A program made the translations under genes and the position numbers. Under the pieces are notes generated by a model. It was given only the letters and a program-made list of their open reading frames with translations. It was not told where the DNA came from and did no database searches. Shown one piece after another: positions 24,705 through 31,741 of a DNA stretch of 64,000 nt. Within the stretch, counting starts at the first letter, position 1. Every line of letters starts with the position of its first letter. The DNA comes from Sulfuricurvum sp. (lineage in GTDB: Bacteria > Campylobacterota > Campylobacteria > Campylobacterales > Sulfurimonadaceae): NCBI GenBank assembly GCA_030692765.1, contig JAUYUB010000016.1, positions 1 to 64,000 of the forward strand, read 5' to 3'.

Positions 24705-24770
24705 GCAAGTTCCTTTTAAAATATTTTTCTATTCTATGGGAAGTTTTCTAAAGAAGGGATAAGAGATGTT

Positions 24771-24826
24771 AATATTTGATTAATGATGGTTTTAATGTTA
24801 CATGTTACACTTAGTCAATATTTGAT
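24771..24826. repeat. Repeat cluster in the lemA / copper-cluster promoter region
   Basis: AATATTTGAT occurs at 24771-24780 and again at 24817-24826. TGTTACA is tandemly repeated at 24796-24802 and 24803-24809. They sit in the 139-base gap before the metal-handling genes and opposite lemA, so they are candidates for a regulator-binding site controlling that cluster. Confidence 0.4.
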
Positions 24827-24843: not shown

Positions 24844-25053
24844 ATGTATCGGTTATTTTTTACACTGTTGATGATGACTTTAGGCGTATTGACTGTTTTT
24901 GGAATGGGTGATGAAGTTGATAAGCCTTCATCAATCAAAGCTGAAGAAGGAAAAACAGTCTATATTTCTATCTCTCCTGCGGTGAATTTTATGGATGAAT
25001 CAAAAATTCAACAAGAAGACCAAAACAGTACAGGTCATGGAAAAGCAAAATGA
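24844..25053 (+). CDS. Small exported protein at the head of the copper cluster
   Basis: 69 residues: a signal-peptide-like start (MYRLFFTLLMMTLGVLTVFGMG) and a short charged remainder with EEGKTVYISISPAVNF and the C-terminal GHGKAK. I do not recognise a family. AAGGA precedes the ATG at good spacing, and its stop overlaps the next gene's ATG by four bases (ATGA), so it is almost certainly translated with the TolC-like gene. A periplasmic metal-related role is inference from context only. Confidence 0.65.
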   Translation: MYRLFFTLLMMTLGVLTVFGMGDEVDKPSSIKAEEGKTVYISISPAVNFMDESKIQQEDQNSTGHGKAK

Positions 25054-26390
25054 AGCAAATAATTATTTATTCTTTTGTGACGCTCATTGTTTTTTCAGGC
25101 TGTTCAACGATTTCTCAAGATGAGGTGTTTGGCGGGCTTAGAGAAGAGACCTCGCAAAACCTTCAATGGATTAAAACGCCACAGGAATCTGAGATGGTTA
25201 AGAAAAGCGTAAATGACCTTCTGTCACAACCTCTGAGCCAGGAAAATGCAGTGCACATTGCGCTTATGAATAACCGTTCGCTGCAGCAAACGTATGCACA
25301 GATCGGACTTTCTCAAAGTGAACTGGTACAAGCGGGATTAATGAGTAATCCCTTATTGGGCTACACGATAGGACATGGCGGAGGTGTGACGAGGTCAACA
25401 TTGAGTCTTGATGTGGCTTTGTTGGATGTGTTATGGATACCGCTTCGCAGAGATCTTGCTGGTGTGGCACTTGAAGAGACCAGATTTAGGGTTGGAGATG
25501 AGGTTCTGCAAACCGTTCGAGAGGTGAAAAAAACCTACATCGATGCCCACGTAGCTCAAGAAAAACTGGCTTTGTACGAAAACTTATTGAAATCGCATGA
25601 AGCATCCATACAGTTGGCGATTCGTCAGCATACGGCAGGGAATCTCTCGAAACGTAATTTACTCAAAATGCAGGATACCTATGCCCATGCACGGCTTGAA
25701 GCCATAGAGCTGAAACGTGAAAATTCAATGGCACGGGAAACACTTAACCGAATTTTGGGTCTCTACGGGGAGCAAACAAACTATACCTTGGAAGATACAC
25801 CGCTGAAATTGGATGCACCTATTTTGGATGCTAAAGGATTGGAAACAAGAGCGATTAAGAATCGTCTGGATATGAATGCGGCAATCAAAGCGGTGGATTA
25901 TGCCGCACGCGATGCGGGGTATACGCAAAATACCCGATTGCTCAACGAGATTGAACTCTCAGCCCAAAGTGAAAAAGAGACGGATGAGCAAAGATTTAAC
26001 AGCTTCGGCATCAAAATTCCACTCCCTATTTTTGACTTTGGGCAGGGGCGTGTAGGCAAAGTGCAGGCTATGTACAATCAAAAGGTGCATCGTCTGTACG
26101 AAGTAGCAGTGAATATCCGATCCCAAGTACGGGAATCGTACGCACTGTCACGTTATGCGTACGATAAAGGGGTTGAAGCAAGCGACGTGATAGTCCCGGT
26201 GAATCAAGAGATTTTAGAAGAAACAAAGCTGTTTTATAACGGTATGCTCGATGGAATTTATGAATTACTGGAAGATCATCGCCGTTACAATGAGGCGAAA
26301 ATGCAATCACTGATGTTTATTGGTGATTATAACAAGGCGCAAGCCGATTTAGAATATGTGTTGGGCGGTAATAACCATGGGACAAAATAG
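25050..26390 (+). CDS. TolC-family outer-membrane lipoprotein
   Basis: 446 residues. Lipobox FSGC (lipidated C18), then two outer-membrane-efflux-protein repeats rich in long helices, with NRSLQQTYAQIGLSQSELVQAGLMSNPLL at the start of the first (recognised by LQQTYAQIG) and GIKIPLPIFDFGQGRVG in the second. Resembles CusC/NodT-type channels that export copper, silver or cobalt. No membrane-fusion or RND pump gene is adjacent. It may serve a pump encoded elsewhere, or the pump has been lost. Overlaps the multicopper oxidase start by 14 bases. Confidence 0.88.
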   Translation: MKQIIIYSFVTLIVFSGCSTISQDEVFGGLREETSQNLQWIKTPQESEMVKKSVNDLLSQPLSQENAVHIALMNNRSLQQTYAQIGLSQSELVQAGLMSNPLLGYTIGHGGGVTRSTLSLDVALLDVLWIPLRRDLAGVALEETRFRVGDEVLQTVREVKKTYIDAHVAQEKLALYENLLKSHEASIQLAIRQHTAGNLSKRNLLKMQDTYAHARLEAIELKRENSMARETLNRILGLYGEQTNYTLEDTPLKLDAPILDAKGLETRAIKNRLDMNAAIKAVDYAARDAGYTQNTRLLNEIELSAQSEKETDEQRFNSFGIKIPLPIFDFGQGRVGKVQAMYNQKVHRLYEVAVNIRSQVRESYALSRYAYDKGVEASDVIVPVNQEILEETKLFYNGMLDGIYELLEDHRRYNEAKMQSLMFIGDYNKAQADLEYVLGGNNHGTK

Positions 26391-27720
26391 ACGAGATTTT
26401 TTAGGGCTTGGTGCGACACTGTTGGCATCTGCCGGGTTGGGAACATCACTCAAAGCACAAGAACACGATCATGGGGGGCACGGTGAACCTTTATCTCCAA
26501 AACGTCAGTTAACACGTGTAGAGAACCCTAAGCGTGTTCTTTCTCCCGCTACCGTTATAACACCGCATGAGGGTCAAAACTACAATCCTGTGGTAACGCT
26601 CAATGGTTGGACATTACCTTTTGATATGAAAGAGGGGATCAAAGAGTTTCATCTTATCGCCGAGCCGGTTGTGCGTGAGTTTGCCCCCGGGATGGTGGTG
26701 AACTGCTGGGGATACAACGGTACCTCTCCGGGTCCTACCATCGAAGCGGTGGAAGGGGACCGTGTCCGTCTGATTGTGACGAATAAACTGCCTGAACACA
26801 CAACGATTCATTGGCATGGACTGATACTCCCCAACGGTATGGATGGAGTAGGGGGATTGACGCAACCGCAGATTGCTCCGGGAGAGACGTTTGTCTATGA
26901 ATTTACACTGGTACAAAGCGGTACATTCATGTATCACCCTCATGCCGATGAGATGGTGCAAATGGCGATGGGGGCAATGGGGATGTTTGTGATTCATCCT
27001 AAAAATCCAAAAGAACATCGTGTGGATAGAGATTTTTGCTTTTTACTTTCCAGTTATGACATTGCTCCGGGCACCTATACCCCAAACCCCTCAACCATGA
27101 CCGAGTTCAATCTCTGGACGTTCAACTCTCGTGTTTTTCCCGGGATTGATTCGATGAATGTACGGGTGGGGGATCGTGTCCGTATCCGTGTCGGGAACCT
27201 CACCATGACAAACCATCCTATCCATATGCACGGACACATTTTCGAGGTGGCCTGTACCGATGGTGGATGGGTACCTAAAAGCGCCAGATGGCCCGAAGTG
27301 ACAACCGATGTAGCCGTAGGGCAGATGAGAGCCATCGAGTTTGTGGCAAAACATGAGGGTGACTGGTCCATTCATTGCCATAAATCGCACCATACAATGG
27401 GACCTATGGGGCATCAGATTCCCAATATGATCGGGGTAAAACAAGACGATATAGCCGAAAAAATAGGTGATTTACTCCCCAACTATATGTACATGCCTAT
27501 GGGTAAGAACGGGATGGCAGAAATGAGTGATATGGTGGATATGGGGATGGCTTTACCAGAAAATACTTTGCCGATGATGAGCGGGCAAGGTCCTTTTGGT
27601 CCCATCGAGATGGGAGGGATGTTCACGCTTGTTAAAGTCCGTAAGAATCAGCCCAAAGGGGATTACTCTGATCCGGGATGGTTCAAGCATCCCTCAGGGA
27701 CCGTGGCAAGTAAAAAGTAG
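26377..27720 (+). CDS. Tat-exported multicopper oxidase (CopA/CueO-like)
   Basis: About 447 residues. Twin-arginine signal (NRRDFLGLGATLLASAG). Copper ligands appear in the usual order: HWHG, HPHAD, HMHGH near 280, and HCHKSHHTMGPMG at the end of the cupredoxin part, giving type 1, 2 and 3 sites. A Met-rich segment follows (YMYMPMGKNGMAEMSDMVDMGM), typical of enzymes that bind Cu(I). Likely oxidises Cu(I) to Cu(II) in the periplasm. I chose the ATG at 26377, which places the RR motif at residues 5-6; a start at 26356 would add seven residues inside the TolC-like gene. Confidence 0.92.
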   Translation: MGQNRRDFLGLGATLLASAGLGTSLKAQEHDHGGHGEPLSPKRQLTRVENPKRVLSPATVITPHEGQNYNPVVTLNGWTLPFDMKEGIKEFHLIAEPVVREFAPGMVVNCWGYNGTSPGPTIEAVEGDRVRLIVTNKLPEHTTIHWHGLILPNGMDGVGGLTQPQIAPGETFVYEFTLVQSGTFMYHPHADEMVQMAMGAMGMFVIHPKNPKEHRVDRDFCFLLSSYDIAPGTYTPNPSTMTEFNLWTFNSRVFPGIDSMNVRVGDRVRIRVGNLTMTNHPIHMHGHIFEVACTDGGWVPKSARWPEVTTDVAVGQMRAIEFVAKHEGDWSIHCHKSHHTMGPMGHQIPNMIGVKQDDIAEKIGDLLPNYMYMPMGKNGMAEMSDMVDMGMALPENTLPMMSGQGPFGPIEMGGMFTLVKVRKNQPKGDYSDPGWFKHPSGTVASKK

Positions 27721-27787
27721 AAGGGCTGGTTAAGGATAAAAAAGGATAATTCGATAATCGCTATTATTTTATCTAAAGGCTATAGGC

Positions 27788-28849
27788 ATGGAAGCGCTCT
27801 TGGAAGCATTCTGGGGATTAAGTGTTGATATGGGTATTTATATCCTTTTTGGTTTATTGGCCGCAGGTGTTTTGCATCAGCTTATTCGTGAAGAATGGAT
27901 ACAAAAACATCTAGGGAAGAATACCCATGGCAGTGTCTATAAAGCGGCGTTATATGGAACTCCCTTGCCGTTGTGCTCATGCAGCGTTATCCCCTTTGCC
28001 GCGACACTACGTCGAAATGGTGCCTCAAAGGGCGCAACACTCTCTTTCTTGATCTCAACACCAATTACAGGTGTTGACTCTATGTTAGCGACCTTTGGTA
28101 TATTTGGAGGGGTATTTACTCTGTACCGTGTGGTTAGTTCTGTTATTATCGCTATGGCTGCAGGGATGTTAATGAATATTTTCGAACCTAAAGAGGCTGT
28201 AAAACCTTTTTCATTTAGTACCACGGCTCCTGTATCGTCTGTAAAATCTTCTCCAACAACAGCAAATGAAGCTCCTAAAAAGTTCTCACTCTACGATGTT
28301 TTTCACTATGGACTGATCACCTTGCTGGGTAGTTTTAGCAAACCGCTTTTCTGGGGACTTTTAATAGGGGCATCTATTACTGCCGCTATGCCTACGAATT
28401 TACAGCAATTCTTTGGAGACAATCGTTTCTTGGGATATTTGATTGCTGTTGCTATTGCCGCTCCGATGTACGTATGTGCTACAGCGTCTTTACCTATTGC
28501 TGCTGCTTTGATCGTTGCCGGAGTTTCACCGGGAGCTGCGTTTATTTTTTTGAGTGCGGGACCTGCAACCAATACGGTGACAATGGGTGTGGTTAAGTCA
28601 ATGCTTGGAATGCGGTCTCTTCTTATTTATCTAGGGGTTATTGGAGGGGGAAGTATCCTATTTGGAGCCCTCATTGATGTCGGTTTTGAAAGTTTTGCTG
28701 TACCCATGAGTGTTGATATGAACGAACATCACGGTGTGATTGAACAAGCAGGTGCCATTATCATGCTGGGGCTCATAGCTTGGCATTTCACGACTGGATG
28801 GTTGACGAAAAAAGATCAAAGTTGCAGTGGTGGATCGTGTTGTTCGTAA
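27788..28849 (+). CDS. SO_0444-type Cu/Zn efflux permease (DUF318/ArsP-like)
   Basis: 353 residues, about eight membrane helices. The signature PLPLCSCSVIPFA (C63 and C65) with RRNGASKGATLSFLISTP, repeated in the second half as AAPMYVCATASLPIAAAL, marks the permease family. The C-terminal cytoplasmic tail DQSCSGGSCCS offers three more cysteines that may bind metal. SO_0444-like members are linked to copper or zinc export. Sits 67 bases after the oxidase, with AAAGGC before the ATG. Substrate is inference from context. Confidence 0.85.
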   Translation: MEALLEAFWGLSVDMGIYILFGLLAAGVLHQLIREEWIQKHLGKNTHGSVYKAALYGTPLPLCSCSVIPFAATLRRNGASKGATLSFLISTPITGVDSMLATFGIFGGVFTLYRVVSSVIIAMAAGMLMNIFEPKEAVKPFSFSTTAPVSSVKSSPTTANEAPKKFSLYDVFHYGLITLLGSFSKPLFWGLLIGASITAAMPTNLQQFFGDNRFLGYLIAVAIAAPMYVCATASLPIAAALIVAGVSPGAAFIFLSAGPATNTVTMGVVKSMLGMRSLLIYLGVIGGGSILFGALIDVGFESFAVPMSVDMNEHHGVIEQAGAIIMLGLIAWHFTTGWLTKKDQSCSGGSCCS

Positions 28850-28878
28850 ATAAATTTAGTAAACTAGGAGAATAAAAA

Positions 28879-28998
28879 ATGAAATACGCAGTTGCATTAG
28901 TAGTATTAGTTACATTGGCATTTGCGGCAGATAGTAATAGCAGCCAAAAAAAGCCCGTTAAAAAAGTGTATCCAAGAGGAACTATTTCTACGCATTAA
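28879..28998 (+). CDS. Exported 39-residue mini-protein
   Basis: ATG at 28879 after TAGGAG gives MKYAVALVVLVTLAFAADSN and a basic tail KKPVKKVYPRGTISTH. The first 17 residues look like a signal peptide ending in AFA, leaving about 22 residues in the periplasm. Too short for confident family assignment. A good ribosome site, only 29 bases after the permease gene, and the signal sequence argue that it is real. Possibly a small periplasmic metal-related or membrane-associated peptide. Confidence 0.55.
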   Translation: MKYAVALVVLVTLAFAADSNSSQKKPVKKVYPRGTISTH

Positions 28999-29072: not shown

Positions 29073-31064
29073 ATGTTTACATTTAAGAGCTTTATGGAAG
29101 CCTATACTCAAATGGGAGTAGCTCCGGAAGATACGGATGAAGAAATACTTAAAAAGCGGATGCTGTCATTTCTCCCATTGATTATTGGTATTGTAGCCAC
29201 TACCTTGGGTTTCATATATATCGTGTTTGGACATTATCTTTCCGCAGCGATTCCTTTATCGTATTCGGTGATATCCGTATTGAATCTCTGGCATATGTAT
29301 GCAACTAAAAAAATTATCTTTCTGCAAGTATCACAATTACTTTTAGTCCTTTTTCTTCCTTTTTTCTTGATGTGGTCATTAGGCGGATTTAATGGCGGAA
29401 GTTACATGCTTATATGGGCATTTTTTGCTCCCGTTGCGGCAATGGCATTTGAAAAAAAGAAAAGTTTATTTTGGATTACTACCTTTATGGTGATGATTTT
29501 TATTTCATCTTTTTTGAATGCTACGCTTGTACGTGAAGTATCACACCTCCCTGACACTTGGGTAACTATCTTTTTTGTCTTGAACAGCGTAGTCGGTTTT
29601 GGCGGTATCTATTTTATGTTTCATTATTACATTACCGACAAAGAGAGACGCTCGGAACTTGAAATTTTTAAAGAACATCAAAAGTTATTGAAAAAAAGTG
29701 ATGAGTTAGCCATTGCTAATGTGAAGTTAGAAGAAATCGCTACGCATGATCATCTAACCGGTCTTGAAAATCGTCTTTCGTTATTGGATAAAGTCCAAAG
29801 TTCTATTAATTATGCGATGAATAATGATCAAAGAGTCGCTCTCTTCTTTATCGATCTGGATCGTTTTAAACAAATTAACGATACGTTGGGACATCCTGTT
29901 GGTGACAAAGTGCTCATTCATATATCGAATGTACTTCGTGGCCATGTAAATGGTAATGATATCGTTGCCCGTTTGGGAGGGGATGAGTTTGTAGTGCTTA
30001 TCGATAAGTTTGAGGATGTCGATGAGTTATCCCTTTTGGCTGCCAAGATTACGGAAGCAGTACGACAGGTTATACTACTTGAAGATCAAGAACTGCAAGT
30101 GACCTGTAGTATTGGCATTACGGTGTATCCGGATGATGTGCAGAGCGATAAGGCACTTCTGCATCATGAAAATATCGCGGATATGTTACTTCGAAATGCA
30201 GATACAGCTATGTATCGCGCGAAAGAGGAAGGTAAAGATAACTATCAATATTACCAAACAGCGATGACAGTACATGCGCTTGAGCGGATGAGCCTTGAAA
30301 AAAAGTTGCGTAAAGCACTTAAAGAAGATGAATTCATAGTGTATTATCAACCGCAAATTGACAGCCGTGAAGATAAGATGGTGGGAATGGAGGCTCTGGT
30401 GCGATGGAATGAACCTTTCAACGGATTGGTCCAACCAGATCGTTTTATTCCGCTTGCTGAAGAGATAGGGCTTATTGTCCTTATGGACAGAGTTGTGATG
30501 TACAAGGCAATGACCCAGTTTGGTATATGGCATAAACAAGGATTAAACCCTGGAATATTATCTCTCAATTTGTCCGTGAGACAATTGGAACAGGAAGATT
30601 TTTTTGATAAATTAGTACTGATAATGCGAGAGACCGGATGCCAGCCAAGTTGGATTGAATTGGAGGTCACGGAGGGGCATATTATGACTGATCCTGAAAA
30701 ATCGATTACGATTTTACAAGCGATAAGTGCGCTGGGAGTCAAGATCTCAGTTGATGATTTTGGGACTGGCTATTCTTCTCTTGCGTACTTGAAACGGCTA
30801 CCTATTGATAAACTTAAAATTGATAAATCGTTTGTTGATGGATTACCGGATGATGAAAACGATAGTGCGATTACACGGACAATTATTGGTTTAGCGCAGA
30901 GTTTAAAATTGAGGATTATTGCAGAGGGTGTAGAGACACTTGAGCAAAAAATATTTTTGGCAGAACATGGATGTAATTTAGTACAAGGATATTTTTATTC
31001 TAAACCGCTTGAAACAGTGCAAATGGAAGAGTATTTAAAAGGTCCAATGGGAAATCTTGTATAA
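29073..31064 (+). CDS. Membrane-anchored diguanylate cyclase/phosphodiesterase (GGDEF-EAL)
   Basis: 663 residues. Five or six N-terminal membrane helices (about 30-185) form an uncharacterised sensor, followed by GGDEF (about 225-390, motif RLGGDEF near 302) and EAL (about 405-655, GMEALVRW near 438, DDFGTGYSSL). The position of the RxxD inhibitory site before GGDEF reads NGND, so product inhibition is probably lost. Both active-site motifs are intact, so it could make or break c-di-GMP. TATAAT at 29030-29035 is its likely promoter. Confidence 0.92.
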   Translation: MFTFKSFMEAYTQMGVAPEDTDEEILKKRMLSFLPLIIGIVATTLGFIYIVFGHYLSAAIPLSYSVISVLNLWHMYATKKIIFLQVSQLLLVLFLPFFLMWSLGGFNGGSYMLIWAFFAPVAAMAFEKKKSLFWITTFMVMIFISSFLNATLVREVSHLPDTWVTIFFVLNSVVGFGGIYFMFHYYITDKERRSELEIFKEHQKLLKKSDELAIANVKLEEIATHDHLTGLENRLSLLDKVQSSINYAMNNDQRVALFFIDLDRFKQINDTLGHPVGDKVLIHISNVLRGHVNGNDIVARLGGDEFVVLIDKFEDVDELSLLAAKITEAVRQVILLEDQELQVTCSIGITVYPDDVQSDKALLHHENIADMLLRNADTAMYRAKEEGKDNYQYYQTAMTVHALERMSLEKKLRKALKEDEFIVYYQPQIDSREDKMVGMEALVRWNEPFNGLVQPDRFIPLAEEIGLIVLMDRVVMYKAMTQFGIWHKQGLNPGILSLNLSVRQLEQEDFFDKLVLIMRETGCQPSWIELEVTEGHIMTDPEKSITILQAISALGVKISVDDFGTGYSSLAYLKRLPIDKLKIDKSFVDGLPDDENDSAITRTIIGLAQSLKLRIIAEGVETLEQKIFLAEHGCNLVQGYFYSKPLETVQMEEYLKGPMGNLV

Positions 31065-31198: not shown

Positions 31199-31275
31199 TG
31201 GCGCAGTCGACGGGACTCGAACCCGCGACCTCCTGCGTGACAGGCAGGCGTTCTAACCAACTGAACTACGACTGC
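31199..31275 (-). tRNA. tRNA-Asp (GTC), copy 2 in transcription order
   Basis: 77 bases including the encoded CCA. Acceptor GCAGTCG pairs with CGACTGC, anticodon loop CTGTCAC gives GTC, and the T-arm GGGTTCGAGTCCC is standard. Last gene of the minus-strand tRNA operon. Differs from the other tRNA-Asp copy by one D-loop base (31255 against 31443). Confidence 0.97.
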
Positions 31276-31287
31276 ACAACTAAATAA

Positions 31288-31363
31288 TGGTGGGAATTAC
31301 AAGACTCGAACTTGTGACATCTACCTTGTAAGGGTAGCGCTCTACCAACTGAGCTAAACTCCC
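31288..31363 (-). tRNA. tRNA-Val (TAC), copy 2 in transcription order
   Basis: 76 bases with encoded CCA. Acceptor GGGAGTT/AATTCCC with one G-T pair, anticodon loop CTTACAA gives TAC. Identical in sequence to the copy at 31478-31553. Confidence 0.97.
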
Positions 31364-31386
31364 AAGAGTTTGTAGAAAATAAAAAA

Positions 31387-31463
31387 TGGCGCAGTCGACG
31401 GGACTCGAACCCGCGACCTCCTGCGTGACAGGCAGGCGTTCTCACCAACTGAACTACGACTGC
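31387..31463 (-). tRNA. tRNA-Asp (GTC), copy 1 in transcription order
   Basis: 77 bases with encoded CCA and loop CTGTCAC (GTC). Part of an Asp-Val pair duplicated in tandem. Confidence 0.97.
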
Positions 31464-31477
31464 ACATTTTGACTAAA

Positions 31478-31553
31478 TGGTGGGAATTACAAGACTCGAA
31501 CTTGTGACATCTACCTTGTAAGGGTAGCGCTCTACCAACTGAGCTAAACTCCC
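31478..31553 (-). tRNA. tRNA-Val (TAC), copy 1 in transcription order
   Basis: 76 bases with encoded CCA, loop CTTACAA (TAC). Precedes tRNA-Asp copy 1 in the transcript. Confidence 0.97.
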
Positions 31554-31571
31554 ATGTCTTTGATGAACAAG

Positions 31572-31647
31572 TGGCGACCCCTAAAGGATTTGAACCTCTG
31601 TTCTTACCATGAAGTGATAATGTCCTTGGCCACTAGACGAAAGGGTC
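31572..31647 (-). tRNA. tRNA-Glu (TTC) with unusual C33
   Basis: 76 bases with encoded CCA. Acceptor GACCCTT/AGGGGTC, T-arm loop GTTCAAAT. The anticodon stem TTATC/GGTAA closes a seven-base loop ACTTCAT, which places TTC at 34-36 but C rather than the almost universal U at position 33. The four other tRNA species or copies in the cluster keep U33. Confidence 0.95.
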
Positions 31648-31665
31648 ACTTAAAACTCTAAAACA

Positions 31666-31741
31666 TGGTGTCCCGTGATGGATTCGAACCATCGACCCCT
31701 TCATTAAAAGTGAAATGCTCTACCAGCTGAGCTAACGGGAC
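31666..31741 (-). tRNA. tRNA-Lys (TTT)
   Basis: 76 bases with encoded CCA. Acceptor GTCCCGT/ACGGGAC, anticodon loop CTTTTAA gives TTT. First gene of the tRNA operon, 38 bases downstream of the promoter -10 box. Confidence 0.97.

Follow-up and report, generated by a model that had tools for sequence, protein, structure and literature searches.

Gene content of the cluster

We analysed a 64,000-nucleotide stretch of DNA from Sulfuricurvum sp. (hereafter the window; assembly GCA_030692765.1, contig JAUYUB010000016.1, positions 1 to 64,000 of the forward strand), which belongs to a genome of 2.15 Mb (G000), and focused on five plus-strand genes that are flanked by a minus-strand lemA/DUF3137 pair on one side and a gene for a GGDEF-EAL protein on the other. 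In order, these genes code for an exported protein of 69 amino acids (aa), a TolC/OEP lipoprotein, a multicopper oxidase (MCO) exported by twin-arginine translocation (Tat), an SO_0444 permease and a 39-aa exported protein. All five open reading frames (ORFs) reported in a preliminary description of this DNA were in place:

24844-25053, plus strand: 69-aa exported protein P0001, overlapping tolC by 4 nucleotides (nt)
25050-26390, plus strand: TolC-type outer-membrane lipoprotein P0002 (Pfam OEP, 99 bits)
26235-26249, plus strand: second periplasmic tip of the channel, YNGML (residues 396-400, Met399 invariant), located by alignment and model
26377-27720, plus strand: Tat-exported two-domain MCO, P0003 from its Met8 (Cu-oxidase_3 and Cu-oxidase_2)
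26809-26820, plus strand: HWHG ligand motif of the MCO; HPIHMH likewise lies upstream of HCHKSHHTMGPM
27373-27408, plus strand: HCHKSHHTMGPM, conserved motif of MCO domain 2 with T1/T3 copper ligands
27487-27621, plus strand: Met-rich C-terminal extension of the MCO, with invariant Met residues
27788-28849, plus strand: SO_0444-family Cu/Zn permease P0004 (NF033936), with the CxC motif PLCSCSVIP and a Cys-rich tail, CSGGSCC
28879-28998, plus strand: 39-aa exported protein P0005, with the conserved C-terminus KKVYPRGTIxTH

The listed start of the MCO ORF at 26356 was rejected, and the Tat start MGQNRRDFLGLG was placed at the ATG at 26377. From this start the MCO gene overlaps tolC by 14 nt, and a gap of 67 nt separates it from the permease gene. 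The cluster had been described as lacking genes of the CusA/CusB type, and we confirmed this locally: no resistance-nodulation-division (RND) pump or adaptor family was found among the nine proteins scanned between 22.5 and 31 kb, and there was no RND match anywhere on the contig.

Distribution of the tolC-MCO pair

A scan of 84,980 species genomes for the oxidase confirmed at least 591 places, and the best 80 of these are the named loci of our study (5 Sulfuricurvum and 75 Pseudomonadota, the latter of the alpha, beta and gamma classes where recorded and with 61-73% identity). A tolC gene of the MCO-linked kind was found directly before the MCO gene in 78 of the 80 named loci, while the other two (L082 and L099) start at the MCO. 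The oxidase match begins at most 170 nt from the tolC stop in 76 out of these 78 loci, and within the genus MCO and TolC were present in exactly the same 27 out of 41 genomes. The tolC-MCO pair is a fixed unit.

The loci nearest to the window oxidase come from Sulfuricurvum metagenome-assembled genomes. Across the order, the oxidase was detected at E 1e-40 in 3 out of 199 sampled genomes, all from the genus Sulfuricurvum and including the window's own. Among 72,556 plasmid records, 337 matched a rhizobial MCO at E 1e-100 and 337 matched the corresponding TolC at E 1e-20, with near-equal organism profiles (the two record lists were compared by counts and not intersected). This patchy presence, together with the proteobacterial nearest kin, points to a horizontal gain of the pair.

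The copper context of the pair is well supported by its neighbours in relatives, namely CusF, CopC and CopD. A CusF match was present in 58 out of the 80 named loci. On plasmid pBMUL01 of Burkholderia multivorans the order is small gene-tolC-oxidase-cusF-copC-copD, followed by a separate tolC-adaptor-RND set, and on pSymA of Sinorhizobium meliloti 1021 genes of the window's MCO/TolC family are arranged as small gene-tolC-MCO-azurin-CusF. The window MCO is 65% identical to the S. psoraleae copy, to which the S. meliloti 1021 copy is 96% identical.

The multicopper oxidase

P0003 was the only Cu-oxidase_3 match in the window genome. The best folds for its model were 3g5w, 3gdc, 2zwn and 7rab, and a single phmmer stretch covered both domains of 3g5w (residues 116-349). 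Structural alignment with VIA-align gave Z 29.7 for 3g5w, with a root-mean-square deviation (rmsd) of 2.5 over 275 residues; 2zwn and 3gdc were close to this, and so were copper nitrite reductases (4kns, Z 28.0, rmsd 2.2 over 259). We take the closest folds to be two-domain MCOs that form trimers. The mean predicted local distance difference test score (pLDDT) of the model was 68.6, with weak regions over the N-terminus and the Met-rich tail.

When the window was aligned with 71 of the 80 named loci (72 rows in total), the His/Cys/Met motifs of the copper ligands were conserved in all rows; their assignment to T1, T2 and T3 sites follows the general MCO pattern. The T1 ligands are found in domain 2 only, and domain 1 has HPH where HCH is expected. 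Nine methionines of the tail (Met378, Met382, Met393, Met396, Met398, Met407, Met408, Met419 and Met422) were also invariant in 72 out of 72 rows. P0003 is a two-domain MCO with complete ligand sets.

Multicopper oxidase families have many substrates, and the enzyme might act on iron, manganese or organic compounds, with the channel exporting the product. The score of P0003 with TIGR01480, the copper-resistance MCO model, fits this reading (172 bits, under the cut-off of 479). We nevertheless consider it highly improbable given the CusF, CopC and CopD neighbours, the Met-rich tail of the oxidase and the related S. meliloti operon, which is induced by copper and whose omp mutant is copper-sensitive (PMC4932525, PMC6266702).

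The outer-membrane channel

The lipobox of P0002 ends, by eye, at Cys18. Its AlphaFold model (mean pLDDT 83.6) comprises two beta hairpins and two long helical hairpins, and the first Foldseek match was CusC (E 3.2e-16). With VIA-align, P0002 aligned to TolC (1ek9) with Z 27.4 and rmsd 3.4 over 373 residues, and to CusC with Z 24.7 and rmsd 3.8 over 373. By both its profile and its hairpins, P0002 is a member of the outer-membrane factor (TolC/OEP) superfamily.

In blast searches P0002 scored at least 114 bits with MCO-linked channels from outside the genus and at most 32 bits with the 17 other channels compared. A branch with 100/99 support also set the MCO-linked rows apart in a channel tree, which included 53 out of 122 rows and in which several non-MCO rows sit on very long branches; the blast gap is thus the firmer evidence that these channels form a group apart. 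P0002 was rejected as a CusC, the channel of a Cus pump, on the basis of the blast gap, the separate clade and the missing CusA/CusB.

Both the lipid-bearing Cys18 and Met399 were present in 102 out of 102 aligned channel rows (3 of 105 rows were dropped by length, and 4 rows are duplicate genomes). Met399 lies within YNGM, in the turn of the second hairpin, where residues 398-402 join the helices 332-397 and 403-437 of the model, and the YNGML tip aligns with the RYRTG tip of OprM. A regular-expression search of other channels returned few comparable tips, so the contrast between tips rests on the OprM alignment and the conservation of the column. For CusC, a review reports no specific Cu(I)-binding signature (PMC7558416), which makes the tip methionine of the MCO-linked channel worth testing. 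Our literature search found no description of the MCO-linked channel clade or of its tip.

These features could suit a channel that works without an adaptor: the oxidase would dock at the YNGM tips of the channel trimer, and its oxidation step would pass copper into the duct. The close pairing of the genes (76 out of 78 within 170 nt, the same 27 out of 41 genomes), the separate channel clade with its tip methionine in all 102 rows, the invariant Met-rich tail and the best folds of the oxidase (2zwn, 3g5w, 3gdc) are consistent with such a cap. We consider it unlikely, as it offers no energy source for vectorial export, the conservation of the tip may serve an adaptor, and the oxidase tail is predicted with low confidence. 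A broader proposal, which we regard as very unlikely, is that MCO-linked channels are TolC-type exporters without a pump or a classical adaptor, in which the oxidase caps the YNGM tips, the oxidation of copper gates the exit, and the small protein encoded before tolC is a partner of the channel, as YbjP is for TolC.

RND pumps in the window genome and in relatives

The window genome contains nine channel genes and three RND sets (C1, C7 and C17), and each set has its own channel gene; the orphan RND pump that the preliminary description had proposed to search for was therefore not found. The only heavy-metal set in the genome, C1 (G000:C1:72081-77385), forms a complete RND operon that includes a channel gene. 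Its RND protein scored 967 bits with TIGR00914, the CusA/CzcA family (cut-off 701), and had none of the three CusA methionines (I, Q and E instead), while the CusA of the Sulfuricurvum relative G224 had all three. We take these methionines to be at positions 573, 623 and 672, on the assumption that a tag of 7 residues shifts the numbering of the PDB chain. The C17 pump is of the multidrug type (TIGR00915, 1160 bits, cut-off 940; TIGR00914, 308 bits, cut-off 701). In C7 (L027, G000:C7:189650-192918) the RND gene is split into adjacent ORFs of 529 and 559 aa that meet at a TGA, next to adaptor and channel genes of its own; both halves scored best with a multidrug model, and all scores were below the cut-off. 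By sequence, no CusA-like pump was found in the window genome. A complete Cus operon elsewhere in this genome was rejected because C1 lacks the CusA methionine triad. The preliminary description would have been refuted by a complete cus operon elsewhere that includes its own cusC; C1 answers to this by half, being complete and having a channel gene, yet not resembling CusA.

We also examined the flanks of the 80 named loci (at most 10 kb, less where a contig ended). No RND pump was found in the fetched flanks of 57 loci, while 23 contained RND genes. Ten of these 23 were cut before the place of the channel gene (L043, L053, L056, L060, L061, L072, L078, L081, L088 and L113). In 11 out of the 13 with readable flanks a separate channel gene lies beside the pump (L050, L055, L083, L090 and L105, and, with OEP confirmed, L039, L044, L049, L062, L077 and L086). 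In one of the remaining loci (L068:11433-18738, from Chelatococcus) tolC-MCO is followed by an azurin-like gene, a DUF305-like gene (by eye), an adaptor gene and a CusA-type pump gene. In G224 the cusCBA genes, which include a 399-aa channel of their own, immediately precede cusF-small gene-tolC-oxidase; this is part of a stacked metal island (L167, G224:C14:36914-54564) with SO_0444, a czcCBA-like set, a FixH-like gene (by eye), cusCBA and cusF-small gene-tolC-MCO. True CusA, defined by at least 51% identity to the G224 protein (the remainder had at most 32%), was present in 3 out of 27 genus genomes with the pair and in 3 out of 14 without it, so the tolC-MCO pair does not track CusA. A channel with no local pump is the usual state of the tolC-MCO module.

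The channel may still act in trans, served by an adaptor and a pump encoded elsewhere (C1, C17 or C7), and replace or exchange with their own channels at high copper, a reading that we find possible though short of probable. P0002 has the topology of an ordinary outer-membrane factor, including the hairpins at the tips, and candidate pumps exist in the window genome. TolC-type channels can serve several pumps (PMC10092412), and L068 (a CusA-type pump with adaptor) and L082 (an RND pump with adaptor) have no second channel in the readable flank. On the other side, all three RND sets of the window genome own a channel gene, as do 11 of the 13 readable neighbouring pumps, C1 has 0 of the 3 CusA methionines against 3 of 3 in G224, true CusA is rare both with and without the pair, and P0002 differs from the other channels compared in its clade and tip motif. 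Sharing of a pump is compatible with copper tolerance and concerns only how the channel is driven. An orphan or broken cus operon was rejected as the principal interpretation, given that 11 out of 13 readable pumps own their channel and that CusA is rare among carriers of the pair. Of the two alternatives offered earlier, a remote pump and a different export route, the first is possible as sharing in trans, while its form as an orphan CusC is disfavoured by the pumps' own channels, the separate clade and the lack of a CusA-like RND protein.

The small exported proteins and CusF

Both mini-genes look real, because homologues occupy the same place in close relatives and the ratio of nonsynonymous to synonymous differences (pN/pS) was 0.19-0.68 in all 16 pairs compared. 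P0001 matched no Pfam or NCBIfam family and no lipobox was seen in it. We searched 103 loci with two hidden Markov models (HMMs) at E 0.1: the Sulfuricurvum 69-aa model matched 28 places upstream of tolC and 1 elsewhere, and a model of the proteobacterial small proteins (41 seeds) matched 48 upstream places and 5 elsewhere. The upstream matches are mostly the models' own seeds, with some genomes seen twice, so only the scarcity of matches elsewhere is informative. The proteobacterial proteins before tolC are often His/Met-rich and, by eye, have a lipobox in some alphaproteobacteria. A common descent of the two kinds was rejected, since neither HMM finds the other kind before tolC, even at E 10. 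Possibly, the 69-aa protein arose by fusion with the leader of a lost CusF (MGDE motif).

No match to the CusF family was found in the window genome. CusF precedes the small gene in 21 out of 26 fetched loci of the genus and is missing in the 4 loci of the window's subclade; one locus was cut. The absence of CusF from the window cluster reads as a loss, because its gene precedes the small gene in those 21 loci.

The permease and a possible cytoplasmic exit of copper

P0004 scored 337 bits with NF033936 (curated cut-off 300), which places it in the SO_0444 family, and it was the only ArsP_1-family match in the window genome. The CxC motif was present in 9 out of 9 permease sequences, and the CxxGSCC tail in all 8 encoded next to an MCO. 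The SO_0444 gene adjoins the MCO gene in 8 out of 27 genus loci (window included), on the same strand and close by in each. In Shewanella, SO_0444 is required under Cu or Zn stress (PMC3219624), and the Nitratiruptor SO_0444 gene showed log2 inductions of 3.35 by Cd and 2.46 by Cu (PMC10092412).

The 39-aa protein had clear copies in 5 out of the 8 loci with an MCO-adjacent permease (window included) and a weak 38% match in a sixth. In this search of 27 loci it was found in none of the 19 without an MCO-adjacent permease, among them L153, a locus that stops at the MCO. As a correction to the first description, in which the two mini-proteins bracket the cluster, the 39-aa protein belongs with the permease and the 69-aa protein with tolC, in different sub-modules. 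In two loci the MCO gene is followed by a gene for a small glycine-zipper lipoprotein (L162, 5774-6208, by Pfam; L145, by eye), which in L162 is in turn followed by an SO_0444 gene.

Three P-type ATPases were found in the window genome, and only one has CPC. This sole CPC ATPase (L168, G000:C28:66054-68683) has a PF12156 N-terminus, and the gene after it is ccoS (51.8 bits, cut-off 28.35); on these grounds the ATPase is probably of the CcoI assembly type. We recognised no separate CopA-type detoxification ATPase in this genome. A review sets low-turnover assembly-type ATPases apart from the detoxifying CopA (PMC7558416). If the CPC ATPase is of the CcoI type, SO_0444 may be the main cytoplasmic exit of copper.

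Upstream region and neighbouring features

A conserved block was found upstream of the operon:

24768-24783, plus strand: GTTAATATTTGATTAA, then CATGTTACACTT, a candidate operator or promoter

The pattern TTAATnTTkGrTTAA was present in 5 out of 5 aligned upstream regions, including the window, with G as the first base in 4 of the 5. With up to 2 mismatches the block had 2 matches in the window against 1.28 expected. An operator shared with the C1 two-component system was rejected, as no copies were present in 12 kb around the C1 RND operon. Promoter and terminator scans of the region returned fewer sites than in shuffled sequences.

Directly 3' of the cluster lies the gene for the GGDEF-EAL membrane protein (29073-31064, plus strand), with a sub-threshold MASE6 match at its N-terminus. 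It is followed by six tandem tRNA genes on the minus strand (31199-31741; Asp-Val-Asp-Val-Glu-Lys), in which the Asp-Val unit is duplicated.

A probable copper-tolerance operon

Judging from sequence and analogy, the cluster is probably a copper-tolerance operon of the omp-cueO kind, to which SO_0444 would have been added and from which CusF would have been lost. It shares its layout with the copper-induced and copper-protective operon of S. meliloti, which makes a copper-tolerance operon the most likely reading. The metal handling first proposed for these genes can accordingly be narrowed to copper, which is well supported by the CusF/CopC/CopD context, the intact MCO ligands and the S. meliloti operon.

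In the mechanism that we propose, the SO_0444 permease of the inner membrane would move excess Cu, and perhaps Zn, from the cytoplasm to the periplasm; both this direction and the order of flow are inferred. The Tat-exported two-domain oxidase would convert Cu(I) to Cu(II), which is less harmful. The TolC-type lipoprotein, dedicated to the oxidase, would then let copper out across the outer membrane, as PcoB/CopB are thought to serve PcoA/CopA. Such a channel would need no Cus pump. The 69-aa protein would be an accessory of the channel-oxidase unit, and the 39-aa protein an accessory of the permease unit.

Several points weigh against this interpretation. Small ions can already cross outer membranes by way of porins, and the gain from a passive channel would thus be small. 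The window's subclade has no CusF, and the locus tags of S. meliloti CCNWSX0020 are tied to the window's family by gene layout. The CPC ATPase passes the general Cu-ATPase model TIGR01511 (462 bits, cut-off 397) and may itself act in detoxification, so SO_0444 need not be the sole exit of copper. In L068 and L082 an adaptor and a pump are encoded near the MCO with no second channel in the readable flank, so in some species a pump may make use of the MCO-linked channel. Finally, SO_0444 has no fixed link to the tolC-MCO pair: it lies elsewhere in other genomes, it is present in 6 out of 14 genus genomes without the pair, and all 8 MCO-adjacent cases occupy one chromosomal site, which suggests that the adjacency is perhaps a single event.

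The last of these points also bears on the possibility, which we consider rather doubtful, that two unrelated neighbours meet here: tolC-MCO, which would handle copper, and SO_0444 with its mini-protein, which would handle a different metal or a metalloid (Zn, Cd or As). Besides the independent occurrence of the permease and the single site, the 39-aa protein tracks the permease and not the MCO, 67 nt separate the MCO and permease genes, and in Nitratiruptor SO_0444 is induced more by Cd than by Cu (PMC10092412). Against two separate units, permease and MCO share strand and proximity in all 8 adjacent cases, and Shewanella needs its SO_0444 when stressed by Cu as well as by Zn (PMC3219624).

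Read as part of a copper-tolerance operon, a TolC without a pump is no accident: it belongs to a copper-defence unit that is conserved and occurs in Campylobacterota as well as in Alpha-, Beta- and Gammaproteobacteria, both on chromosomes and on plasmids. The question it addresses is how metal leaves the periplasm in Cop/Pco-like systems, whose outer-membrane partner has no known motor. Because the oxidase is paired here with a channel whose fold is known and whose tip carries an invariant residue, this question can be tested.

Comparison with known systems

With CusCFBA the window cluster shares the outer-membrane factor fold, and CusF lies beside the pair in most of the fetched genus loci; it differs in having no CusA/CusB and a channel from a separate clade, and the pumps neighbouring the pair in relatives mostly own a channel. 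With Cop/Pco (PcoA-PcoB, CopA-CopB) it has in common a Tat MCO combined with an outer-membrane protein and the same proposed logic, PcoB being described as a possible Cu(II) exporter (PMC7558416). The window MCO, in contrast, is two-domain and below the TIGR01480 cut-off, and its outer-membrane partner is an OEP/TolC protein; no CopB family match was found among the nine proteins scanned around the cluster, which was therefore not assigned to Cop/Pco.

Nitratiruptor sp. SB155-2, also from Campylobacterota, has a cluster with SO_0444 and a TolC gene that is induced by Cd and Cu. As described there, this cluster differs in that genes for a cytochrome c, a regulator and a probable RND protein, together with a hypothetical gene, separate the two; CueO was reported separately (PMC10092412). 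In E. coli the lipoprotein YbjP is a partner bound to the TolC channel (PMC13082787, PMC13095208), which offers a lead for the small protein before tolC; the likeness is one of description, and P0001 shows no lipobox. In Bradyrhizobium, separate insertions in tolC and MCO genes lowered copper tolerance (PMC5057107).

The closest likeness is to the 'MCO operon' of S. meliloti CCNWSX0020, with the order omp-cueO-azurin-like-chaperone (PMC6266702, PMC4932525). The window cluster has no azurin-like or CusF gene and has SO_0444 and the 39-aa protein instead, and its 69-aa protein has no detectable homology to the proteobacterial small proteins; we class it as a variant of the S. meliloti operon and not as a full member of that type. 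In both, a TolC/OEP gene lies directly before a Tat MCO gene of the same family, and a small exported protein is encoded before tolC. In S. meliloti, copper raises omp 646-fold and cueO 243-fold, and the omp mutant is hypersensitive to copper (PMC4932525, PMC6266702).

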